From Paratractidigestivibacter faecalis (lineage in GTDB: Bacteria; Actinomycetota; Coriobacteriia; Coriobacteriales; Atopobiaceae): a stretch of 64,000 nucleotides of DNA. Made by a program: the position numbers and the translations under genes. The DNA is taken from contig NZ_QSNG01000001.1 in assembly GCF_003416765.1 (NCBI RefSeq), positions 708,742 to 772,741 of the forward strand. The letters run 5' to 3'. The notes beneath the pieces are model-generated. The model had not been told where the DNA came from and did not search any database. It worked only from the letters and a program-made list of their open reading frames with translations. This document shows positions 56,319-59,386 of this stretch, piece by piece; the stretch's first letter is position 1; every line of letters starts with the position of its first letter.

Positions 56319-56789
56319 ATGCCGGGAAAGCGCGACGACGTCATCAGTTGGGACGAGTTCTTCATGCGGGTGGCCATTGCGGCCAAGCTGCGCAGCAAGG
56401 ACCCCAACACTCAGGTCGGCGCCTGCATCGCCGACACGCACCACCGCATCCTCTCGGTTGGCTACAACGGCACCCCGGCCGGTCTCGACGACGACGAGTT
56501 TCCCTGGGAGTCCACGGGAGACCCGCTGACCGACAAGCACAACTACGTCATCCACGCCGAGGCCAACGCCATCCTCAACTACCGCGGGTCGCTCAAGGAC
56601 ATGGCGGGCGCCACGGTCTACGTCACGCTCTTCCCCTGCCACGAGTGCGCCAAGACCCTCGTGCAGGCGGGCATAGGCGAGGTGGTCTACCTCGACGACA
56701 AGTACCACGACACCGAGGACGGCGTGGTGTCCCGCTCTATCCTGGACCGCTGCGGCATCTCCTACCGCCAGGTGGTCGTGGCCGAGTAG
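56319..56789 (+). CDS. dCMP deaminase family protein (ComEB-like)
   Basis: Zinc nucleotide deaminase, 156 residues. The metal site is HAEANAIL together with PCHECAKTLV. SKDPNTQVGACIAD and GYNGTPAGLDDDEFPW are characteristic of dCMP deaminases, which produce dUMP for thymidylate synthesis. In Bacillus the homologue comEB sits with comEA and comEC; here it is 6 kb away. GGAGGGGAG precedes the ATG. Confidence 0.92.
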   Translation: MPGKRDDVISWDEFFMRVAIAAKLRSKDPNTQVGACIADTHHRILSVGYNGTPAGLDDDEFPWESTGDPLTDKHNYVIHAEANAILNYRGSLKDMAGATVYVTLFPCHECAKTLVQAGIGEVVYLDDKYHDTEDGVVSRSILDRCGISYRQVVVAE

Positions 56790-56902
56790 ACCTGCCGCCC
56801 GGCGTGTTTAGACCGGACGCGCCGCGGATATAATTCCAACCATGCGCCGGCGGGCCCGCCCCCGCCGGCCCTCATCCCACCCCGGACAAAGGGACCAGCC
56901 AC

Positions 56903-57994
56903 ATGGCATCCATGAACGACAAGGACTACTACGCCATTCTCGGCGTGTCCAAGGACGCCTCCACGGAGGAGATCCGCAAGGCCTTCCAGCAGAAGGCCAG
57001 GAAGCTTCACCCCGACGTCAACAAGGAGCCCGACGCGGAGGAGCGCTTCAAGGAGGTCTCCGAGGCCTACGCCGTCCTCTCCGACGACGAGAAGCGCCGC
57101 CGCTACGACGCCATGCGCTCCGGAGTGCCCTTCGCCGGCGGCTACTCCGGCCAGGCCCCGCGCGGCGGCTATGGCGACCCCTTTACCGGCGGCCCCTATG
57201 CCTGGGGCCCCTTCGGCGCCTCCACGCGCAGGCAGTCCAGGGCCTATCGGCCCCGTCAGGGAGCCGACGTCGTCATCGACGTCACTGTCGGTGCGGAGAA
57301 GGCCGCGACCGGCATGCGGCGCGGCGTCACCTACCAGCGCTATGCCGCCTGCGACCACTGCCACGGCACGGGCTCGGTCGAGGCCGAGCACTCCGAGACC
57401 TGCCCCACCTGCGGCGGTCGGGGCCGCATCTCCGTGGACCTCGGCTCTATCTTCGGCATCGGCGTCATGGAGATGGAGTGCCCCGAGTGCGAGGGAACGG
57501 GCCGGGTGGTGGCGGACCCCTGCGACGTCTGCGGCGGCACCGGGCGCACCCTCACCGCCTCCGAGGTCGTCGTGGACATCCCTGCCGGGTCTCATGACGG
57601 CGACGAGGTCCGCGTGCCCGGAATGGGCAACGCCGGCACCAACGGCGAGGCCGCGGGTGACTTCGTCTGCCGCGTCTGCGTGCCGGAGGAGCGCCTCACC
57701 CCCTCGCAGGCCAACGGCTTCGCCCTCATCGGCTTTGCCGTGCCCTTCGTGGTCTTTGGCCTGCTCACGCGCTCGCTCGGGTCCTTCTCGCTGTTCATCG
57801 CCGCACTTGTGGTGGCCGGCCTGGTCATGGTCGTGCGCGGCGGTGTCAAGCTGAGCCGCCGCTGGTGGAGAAACGCGGGCATGGCGCTGGGCAACGGCGC
57901 GAGCCAGGGCTTCACCATCGCGCTGTTCGTCACGCTGATGTTCTCGTGCACGGCCGGACTCGGTCGGGTCGGGTACATGGGACGTGGCTTCTAG
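56903..57994 (+). CDS. Membrane-anchored DnaJ-like cochaperone
   Basis: A 363-residue J-protein of unusual build. The J domain (1-75) has HPD at 36-38. A Gly/Phe/Tyr-rich part (75-115) follows, then CTD-I with a full zinc finger: CDHCHGTG, CPTCGGRG, CPECEGTG and CDVCGGTG. Instead of the second C-terminal domain and dimer region, about three hydrophobic spans occur (roughly 270-312 and 333-355). The protein is therefore predicted to sit at the membrane. It should still stimulate DnaK. GGGACC and AAAGGGA lie before the ATG. A canonical dnaJ lies just downstream. Confidence 0.82.
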   Translation: MASMNDKDYYAILGVSKDASTEEIRKAFQQKARKLHPDVNKEPDAEERFKEVSEAYAVLSDDEKRRRYDAMRSGVPFAGGYSGQAPRGGYGDPFTGGPYAWGPFGASTRRQSRAYRPRQGADVVIDVTVGAEKAATGMRRGVTYQRYAACDHCHGTGSVEAEHSETCPTCGGRGRISVDLGSIFGIGVMEMECPECEGTGRVVADPCDVCGGTGRTLTASEVVVDIPAGSHDGDEVRVPGMGNAGTNGEAAGDFVCRVCVPEERLTPSQANGFALIGFAVPFVVFGLLTRSLGSFSLFIAALVVAGLVMVVRGGVKLSRRWWRNAGMALGNGASQGFTIALFVTLMFSCTAGLGRVGYMGRGF

Positions 57995-58044
57995 CCGCGC
58001 GCGCCGGGCCGCCAGCTGATAAGATTTCCTCTGCGCAAACCTTC

Positions 58045-58072
58045 GTCGGGGGCCATCGGCCCCCGACTTTTT
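58045..58072 (+). terminator. Rho-independent terminator between the two dnaJ genes
   Basis: GTCGGGGGCC (58045-58054) pairs with GGCCCCCGAC (58058-58067) around ATC, followed by TTTTT. It separates the two J-protein genes into different transcription units. Confidence 0.93.
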
Positions 58073-58129
58073 GGGTATCAGGTGTTGGGTAACTGAACGT
58101 TTCTTGGCTTTTGTGGGAGATAGGTCAGA

Positions 58130-59386
58130 TTGGAACCGAAGAAGGACTACTACGAGGTGCTCGGCGTCGACCACGACGCGGACGCAAAGACCATCAAGCG
58201 CGCTTTCCTGAAGCTTGCCCGCAAGCTTCACCCGGACGTCTCGGACGCCCCGGACGCCGAGGAGCGCTTCAAGGAGGTCAACGAGGCCTATACGGTCCTT
58301 TCCGACGACCAGAAGCGCGCCAACTACGACCGCTACGGAGACCCCAACGGCCCCGCCGGCTTTGGCTCCGACTACGTTGACGTCTCCGACATCTTCGGCG
58401 GCGGTGGCTTTGGCTTCGGCGACATCTTCGACTCCTTCTTCGGCGGCCAGGGTCGCGGCGGCGCCCAGGCCCGCACGCGCGGCCGCGACATGGGCATCCA
58501 TCTGAGGATCACCCTTGCCGAGGCGGCCGCCGGCTGCAAGAAGACCGTCTCCTACGAGCGCCTCGCGCCCTGCGACGACTGCGGCGGCACCGGCGTCGCC
58601 GAGGGCGGCCACGCCAAGACCTGCGACCGCTGCCACGGCTCCGGTCGCGTGGTCGAGGTCCAGCGCACCATCTTCGGCCAGATGCAGTCCCAGTCCACCT
58701 GCCCCGTCTGCCACGGCAGCGGCAAGGTCGTGGACAAGCCCTGCGAGACCTGCGAGGGCCAGGGCCGCACCCCTTCCCGCGAGAAGGTCGAGGTCCAGGT
58801 GCCGGCCGGCATCCACTCCGGCCAGACGCTCACCGTCGAGGGCAAGGGCGAGGCCGGCATGAGGGGAGACGCCTCCGGCAACCTCGTCGTCTCCGTCGAG
58901 ATTCTCCCGGACGAGCGCTTTGAGCGTCAGGGCGACGACCTCTACTGCACCGTCGAGGTGGACGCACTCGAGGCCATCCTGGGCACCACGGTCCACATGG
59001 ACGGCATCCTGGAGGGCGAGCGCGTGACCGTCGAGGTCCCGGCCGGCTGCCAGTTCGGCCAGCAGATCATCGTCGAGCGCCGCGGCATGCCGCGCGTCGG
59101 CATGATCGCCCGCGGCAACCTCGTGGCCGTCGTCCAGGTGAGGACGCCCAGCGACCTCACCAAGAAGCAGCTGCTCGAGGTCGCCTCCATCGTGGCCGAG
59201 CGCACCATGTCGGACGAGGGCGACGGCGCCGCCGAGGCCGAGGAGGGCCCCGAGGGCGCGGCCAAGGAGCCCGGCGTCGGCTCCAAGCTCAAGGAGGAGA
59301 TCGAGGAGGAGGTCGCCGAGCACTTCTCGTCCGACAAGTGGCACGCGCCCAGGAACCCGTTCAAGGGCAAGGGGAAGCGCAAGTGA
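58130..59386 (+). CDS. dnaJ: Chaperone DnaJ (class I)
   Basis: Cochaperone that delivers clients to DnaK, 418 residues. J domain with HPD (about 36-38), a Gly/Phe region (78-112), four zinc repeats CDDCGGTG, CDRCHGSG, CPVCHGSG and CETCEGQG, CTD-I and CTD-II (LEAILGTTVHMDGILEGE), and an acidic then basic tail. The TTG start follows GGGAGATAGG. No dnaK or grpE adjoins. Its stop overlaps the GTG of mtaB. Confidence 0.95.
   Translation: MEPKKDYYEVLGVDHDADAKTIKRAFLKLARKLHPDVSDAPDAEERFKEVNEAYTVLSDDQKRANYDRYGDPNGPAGFGSDYVDVSDIFGGGGFGFGDIFDSFFGGQGRGGAQARTRGRDMGIHLRITLAEAAAGCKKTVSYERLAPCDDCGGTGVAEGGHAKTCDRCHGSGRVVEVQRTIFGQMQSQSTCPVCHGSGKVVDKPCETCEGQGRTPSREKVEVQVPAGIHSGQTLTVEGKGEAGMRGDASGNLVVSVEILPDERFERQGDDLYCTVEVDALEAILGTTVHMDGILEGERVTVEVPAGCQFGQQIIVERRGMPRVGMIARGNLVAVVQVRTPSDLTKKQLLEVASIVAERTMSDEGDGAAEAEEGPEGAAKEPGVGSKLKEEIEEEVAEHFSSDKWHAPRNPFKGKGKRK

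Follow-up and report, generated by a model that had tools for sequence, protein, structure and literature searches.

The window, a stretch of 64,000 nucleotides from Paratractidigestivibacter faecalis, carries on its forward strand, at positions 56903-57994, a gene for a DnaJ paralog (here called TM-DnaJ) in which a J domain and a zinc finger are joined to a hydrophobic C-terminal tail. With a probability of roughly 0.75, TM-DnaJ is a conserved membrane-tethered J-domain protein that serves as a DnaK co-chaperone at the cytoplasmic face of the membrane. The domain make-up of the protein, the loss of CTD-II, the conservation of the tail and the selection acting on it, the single clade, and the organization of the locus were established by computation; from the sequence we infer membrane insertion, orientation, the DnaK partner, and the clients. 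J proteins set where Hsp70 works, and, outside E. coli, little is understood about the route by which bacterial DnaK reaches the membrane. Entire families of gut bacteria appear to possess, in addition to a soluble DnaJ, a zinc-finger paralog that is anchored in the membrane. TM-DnaJ is a natural experiment in which J-domain and zinc-finger functions are separated from CTD-II and dimerization, and it makes the action of DnaK at the membrane testable through one gene.

Domain architecture and the hydrophobic tail

The TM-DnaJ reading frame starts with ATG, encodes 363 amino acids, and is preceded by AGGGA (56890-56894), a likely ribosome-binding site located 8 bases 5' of the start codon; all features given below lie on the same, forward strand. 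The first-pass annotation had described an intact J domain and a four-repeat zinc finger, and Pfam recognizes both. The J domain (residues 8-69; 56924-57109; PF00226, E = 2.8e-26) contains the HPD motif at residues 36-38, which is present in 104/104 distinct orthologs (129 rows before collapsing). In place of the G/F region, there is a glycine-rich, disordered linker (residues 75-117; 57125-57253) with pLDDT values mostly below 50. The first part of CTD-I (residues 121-149; 57263-57349) was assigned by the DnaJ_C profile and by VIA-align against 6jzb and 1nlt. The zinc-finger domain, with four CXXCXGXG repeats (residues 150-214; 57350-57544; PF00684, E = 5.5e-14), retains seven of its cysteines in all 104 orthologs and the eighth, C193, in 103, and is followed by the second part of CTD-I (residues 215-262; 57545-57688), at the end of which homology to canonical DnaJ stops.

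The Pfam DnaJ_C match covers profile positions 2-77 of 152, which corresponds to CTD-I without CTD-II; the match of the canonical DnaJ encoded next to it spans positions 3-152. Likewise, a profile built from 65 canonical DnaJs aligns up to residue 262 and no further, and the canonical DnaJ profile detected no CTD-II in any frame of 57600-58129. The NCBIfam model TIGR02349 (DnaJ_bact) matches residues 8-263 with 246.6 bits, below its cut-off of 377.2. Nor does any canonical DnaJ sequence match that could represent a dimerization domain appear beyond residue 262 in any frame; membrane-type helices are predicted there instead. TM-DnaJ possesses the J domain and zinc finger that help to define class A proteins and lacks the set of two β-sandwich domains and a dimerization domain. 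Judged by the defining features, it falls short of a full class A protein, yet it groups with dnaJ by descent.

The place of CTD-II and the dimerization region is occupied by a hydrophobic tail of approx. 100 amino acids (residues 263-363). AlphaFold2, run with 54 aligned sequences (whole-protein mean pLDDT 79.4, pTM 0.55), predicts three helices in the tail, mostly with pLDDT above 90, and the same three helices were obtained when the tail was modeled alone (mean pLDDT 83.9). The first two, also indicated by hydropathy, are predicted membrane helices at residues 267-289 (57701-57769) and 292-313 (57776-57841); the third is long (residues 319-356; 57857-57970), starting near W321-W322 and having C349 close to its end. 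The highest 19-residue Kyte-Doolittle mean ranges from 1.85 to 3.05 in the tails of the 104 orthologs, compared with 0.61-1.69 in the C-terminal parts of the 65 canonical DnaJs, 62 of which contain no segment reaching 1.6. The earlier proposal that hydrophobic spans stand where CTD-II and the dimer interface normally lie is therefore upheld, and the tail does not look like that of a soluble protein. A point against the three-helix model is that exactly three segments of at least 1.6 are found in just 49 of the 104 tails; two are found in 46, four in 5, and one in 4.

On average, lysine and arginine residues together number 3.15 in the loop that joins helices 2 and 3, compared with 0.11 in the one joining helices 1 and 2, and the first of these loops has more of them in every ortholog (104/104). 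By the positive-inside rule, this bias predicts that the J domain is cytosolic and, in the three-helix form, that the C-terminus lies outside the cell, which places C349 close to the outer end of helix 3. Several tail residues are kept: G277, W321, and G332 in 104/104 orthologs, P281 in 103, W322 in 94, and C349 in 92. Of the 12 orthologs without C349, one (L083) is masked at this cysteine, and 11 (L084, L087, L089, L091, L092, L098, L103, L106, L107, L108, and L110) have a longer hydrophobic end, in most cases terminating in basic residues; this extension may form a fourth span that turns the C-terminus inward.

In a scan of 64 tails, no known domain was recognized: any one Pfam family matched at most 4 of them and any one NCBIfam family at most 5, and the best E-value was 0.0012. 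Among PDB sequences, the best match to the tail had an E-value of 0.079, and the best row of a structural search was FliT (Z 6.3, rmsd 6.8, 96 residues aligned), which falls within the chance range for helical bundles. These results are an absence of match and not proof of a new fold.

Distribution, descent, and selective constraint

A profile of the tail matched 162 of the 297 genomes of the order at an E-value of 0.01, namely 91/91 in family f1, 65/65 in f10, 2/3 in f3, and 4 in f2 (per-family counts were tallied by hand from the search listings). Judging from named records with the same sequences (Olsenella, Thermophilibacter, Tractidigestivibacter, and others), f1 is the Atopobiaceae; f10 is probably the Coriobacteriaceae and f2 probably the Eggerthellaceae. 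The f2 matches are weak (four at E = 0.005-0.01; G155 reached 3.3e-4 with a wider profile) and were treated as chance; the two loci read out of the four, G155 and G042, hold no J protein. A second, weak match in G002 was likewise set aside; the membrane protein in which it lies has no J domain. The tail is thus accepted in 158/297 genomes, including every genome sampled from two families, so that the search for the architecture in other Coriobacteriia suggested by the first-pass annotation found it widely retained among orthologs. A class-wide search matched 157/346 genomes, the listed matches belonging to f1, f10, f3, and, marginally, one f2 genome; a phylum-wide search matched 23/396 genomes, all of them f1 or f10, and no lineage beyond the TM-DnaJ families was found among these 396. 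The f3 proteins display the full architecture (J domain, zinc finger, CTD-I, and membrane region) and share the S/N-C pair close to the C-terminal end.

A few genomes deviate from the usual single intact gene. The f3 genome G011 contains a tandem pair of TM-DnaJ copies (L139, 655-1785 and 1954-3081; also L200); their DNA is identical from approx. base 120 of the gene through its end and into the downstream region, and the starts of their J domains differ, which reflects either recent gene conversion or an assembly artifact. In five genomes (G144, G230, G054, G160, and G233), the match contains one internal stop, and in G206 (L136) it is split across two overlapping frames; pseudogenes, sequencing errors, or matches that run past a stop are possible explanations.

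A tree was built from 94 proteins over 206 columns (with the tail and the linker excluded and 8 rows omitted as partial, duplicate, or, in L003, a CbpA-like protein), and in it all 32 TM-DnaJs lie on one side of a single branch with a support of 100/100. Within this clade, f3 branches first, the f10 rows cluster together, as do most f1 rows, and one f1 sequence (G218) is set apart on a long branch. The clade itself is sure; the depth of its origin is less so, because no single branch separates the outgroup from the other proteins (2 rows fall on the wrong side). Most likely, TM-DnaJ was born from one ancient dnaJ event, for which duplication is the proposed mechanism.

The constraint on the separate domains is uneven. 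When columns conserved in at least 90% of 53 canonical DnaJs were scored in the 32 TM-DnaJs, 30/35 were kept in the J domain and 17/20 in the zinc finger, in comparison with 2/11 and 7/12 in the two parts of CTD-I (9/23 overall) and 1/8 in the G/F region. The tail shows dN/dS values of 0.05-0.18 (closest 25 of 176 pairs), which indicates that it is under purifying selection. Taken together, the parts that dock DnaK and bind zinc have been kept, general client binding has apparently become looser, and the tail is selected. The loss of CTD-II and the relaxation of CTD-I might be expected of a degenerate or frameshifted dnaJ copy that ends in meaningless hydrophobic sequence; however, such a reading is ruled out for practical purposes, its probability being negligible, by the presence of the tail throughout the sampled genomes of two families, by the selection on it, and by the missing CTD-II in every frame.

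The same data bear on a further possibility, held at clearly less than even odds, that the three-helix domain is a dedicated adaptor that binds one specific membrane partner (a translocon, insertase, protease, or transporter), which would make TM-DnaJ a specialist co-factor and not a general membrane chaperone. The fixed tail residues go beyond what hydrophobicity requires and, together with purifying selection, point in this direction, as does the relaxation of CTD-I but not of the J domain and zinc finger, which would fit a lesser need for general substrate binding. However, the fixed residues may have no role other than in helix packing or at the membrane interface, and no partner gene accompanies TM-DnaJ in its conserved neighborhood; among 109 loci, no gene of this neighborhood suggests a link to secretion or to membrane quality control. 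Such an adaptor would refine the membrane-tethered co-chaperone reading and not exclude it, and the confidence placed in the two overlaps. It is also conceivable, though unlikely, that the place of the second client-binding domain and of the dimer interface was taken by a dedicated intramembrane domain with fixed Trp, Gly, and Pro residues and an outward-facing Cys, and that clients would be captured, and copies of the protein would associate, within the membrane; TM-DnaJ would then be an integral arm of the DnaK system for chaperoning membrane proteins, present already in the ancestor of the Atopobiaceae and the related carrier families.

The expected DnaK partner and comparison with known J proteins

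The genome encodes three J proteins: TM-DnaJ, the canonical DnaJ, and a CbpA-like protein, whose gene is located between grpE and a MerR-like regulator that resembles HspR (names assigned by reading the translations). It contains one full-length Hsp70 (DnaK), encoded just 5' of a reading frame as long as the grpE just mentioned; the other PF00012 match is limited to profile positions 135-240. Because there is one full-length Hsp70, DnaK is the expected partner of TM-DnaJ, and since the J surface is kept, the most natural interpretation is that TM-DnaJ recruits DnaK to the membrane, as the first-pass annotation had proposed.

According to the membrane-tethered co-chaperone reading, a class A dnaJ would have been duplicated once, in the distant past, and the CTD-II and dimerization region of one copy would have been exchanged for a three-helix membrane domain, which would place the J domain, zinc finger, and CTD-I at the cytoplasmic face of the membrane. 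There, TM-DnaJ may capture segments that are unfolded or just emerging close to the membrane and pass them to DnaK, whose ATPase would be stimulated by the HPD loop. The membrane domain would hold DnaK activity beside sites of secretion or insertion or beside damaged membrane proteins, and the cytosol would be served by the canonical DnaJ and the CbpA-like protein. As CTD-I is relaxed and the G/F region largely lost, substrate handling by TM-DnaJ may differ from that of canonical DnaJ or be weak.

Searches of titles and opening parts of abstracts on DnaJ in combination with transmembrane, Coriobacteriia, Collinsella, or Actinobacteria retrieved no description of this architecture, which may nevertheless have been listed earlier. 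TM-DnaJ resembles class A DnaJ and Ydj1 in its N-terminal J domain with HPD, in the zinc finger inserted in CTD-I, and in its position in the tree; it differs from them in the lack of CTD-II and a dimerization domain, in the reduced G/F region, and in its three predicted membrane helices. Ydj1 and human DNAJA1/A2 reach membranes via C-terminal farnesylation. DjlA is a membrane-located protein with an N-terminal anchor and a C-terminal J domain; TM-DnaJ is not a DjlA, as it scores 14.6 bits against NCBIfam NF006948 (cut-off 162). E. coli DjlA works with DnaK, and DjlB and DjlC are class C J proteins that have a C-terminal membrane anchor and cooperate with HscC (PMC8215388). The C-terminal membrane region is common to DjlB/DjlC and TM-DnaJ, but the latter has three predicted helices instead of a single tail anchor and, unlike the former, contains a zinc finger and CTD-I; moreover, no HscC-type Hsp70 was found in the genome, its one full-length Hsp70 being encoded in the grpE cluster. 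A study of Leishmania lists two type I J proteins with a zinc finger, J45 and J46, each with a single transmembrane segment (residues 12-32 and 8-31, respectively), and likens them to ER proteins (PMC9141911); in both, the segment is N-terminal and, unlike the tail of TM-DnaJ, does not replace CTD-II. Chlamydomonas ZnJ6 is described as a protein that is associated with the thylakoid membrane, has four CXXCX(G)X(G) motifs, and exhibits oxidizing activity (PMC7865324), but it is a plastid protein and not a bacterial DnaJ paralog.

The dnaJ locus, expression signals, and HrcA

A standard dnaJ just downstream of TM-DnaJ, as previously noted, is confirmed: a canonical class A gene (58130-59386, TTG start, 418 amino acids; recognized by Pfam and by TIGR02349 with 379.2 bits) starts 135 bases after the TM-DnaJ stop codon. 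TM-DnaJ is almost always located directly 5' of the canonical dnaJ or of an hrcA-dnaJ pair, and dnaJ is downstream in 108/109 surveyed loci; in the remaining one, L076, dnaJ is partly masked, which was not scored as a loss. Because one promoter-like site (TTTAGA-16-TATAAT, 56807-56834, a consensus match only) lies upstream of TM-DnaJ and one terminator-like hairpin followed by TTTTT (58045-58067) lies downstream, the gene is probably its own transcription unit in this genome. The proposed separate control from dnaJ is therefore favored here but does not hold in general: a terminator-like site follows TM-DnaJ in just 30/104 loci (17/520 shuffles), so that cotranscription with dnaJ is possible elsewhere. 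A promoter-like site precedes it in 12/102 loci (10/510 shuffles), on which no general claim is based; in both counts, the shuffles preserve single-base content only.

HrcA was found in 130/297 genomes of the order, that is, in 7/158 with the tail and 123/139 without it; it was not found in the present genome, in 84 of the 91 f1 genomes, or in the 65 f10 genomes. HrcA positions were taken from this search of the 297 genomes, a single-sequence phmmer search having recovered only its own source. In all 7 genomes with both genes (G068, G076, G159, G221, G259, G275, and G281, all f1), HrcA is encoded directly 3' of TM-DnaJ on the same strand, and several loci have a gap of approx. 800-1000 bases between TM-DnaJ and dnaJ, which is enough for hrcA. 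Given these positions and gaps, the simplest history is an ancestral order hemW - TM-dnaJ - hrcA - dnaJ, from which hrcA would later have been lost in most lineages.

The scarcity of HrcA among genomes with the tail raises the idea that TM-DnaJ controls the availability of DnaK, and hence an HspR-type heat-shock response, in lineages that mostly lack HrcA. This is improbable: the 7 genomes that carry both rule out a simple replacement of HrcA by TM-DnaJ, the pattern may be an effect of shared lineage, and no CIRCE- or HAIR-like site is located near the TM-DnaJ gene. The window contains no CIRCE-like site and one HAIR-like (HspR) match, which is at chance level and far from TM-DnaJ. Between hemW and TM-DnaJ, the window also contains a dCMP-deaminase-like gene (56319-56789); it was found at the same spot in 40/109 surveyed loci, some of the 109 ending before they reach it, and seems to come and go.
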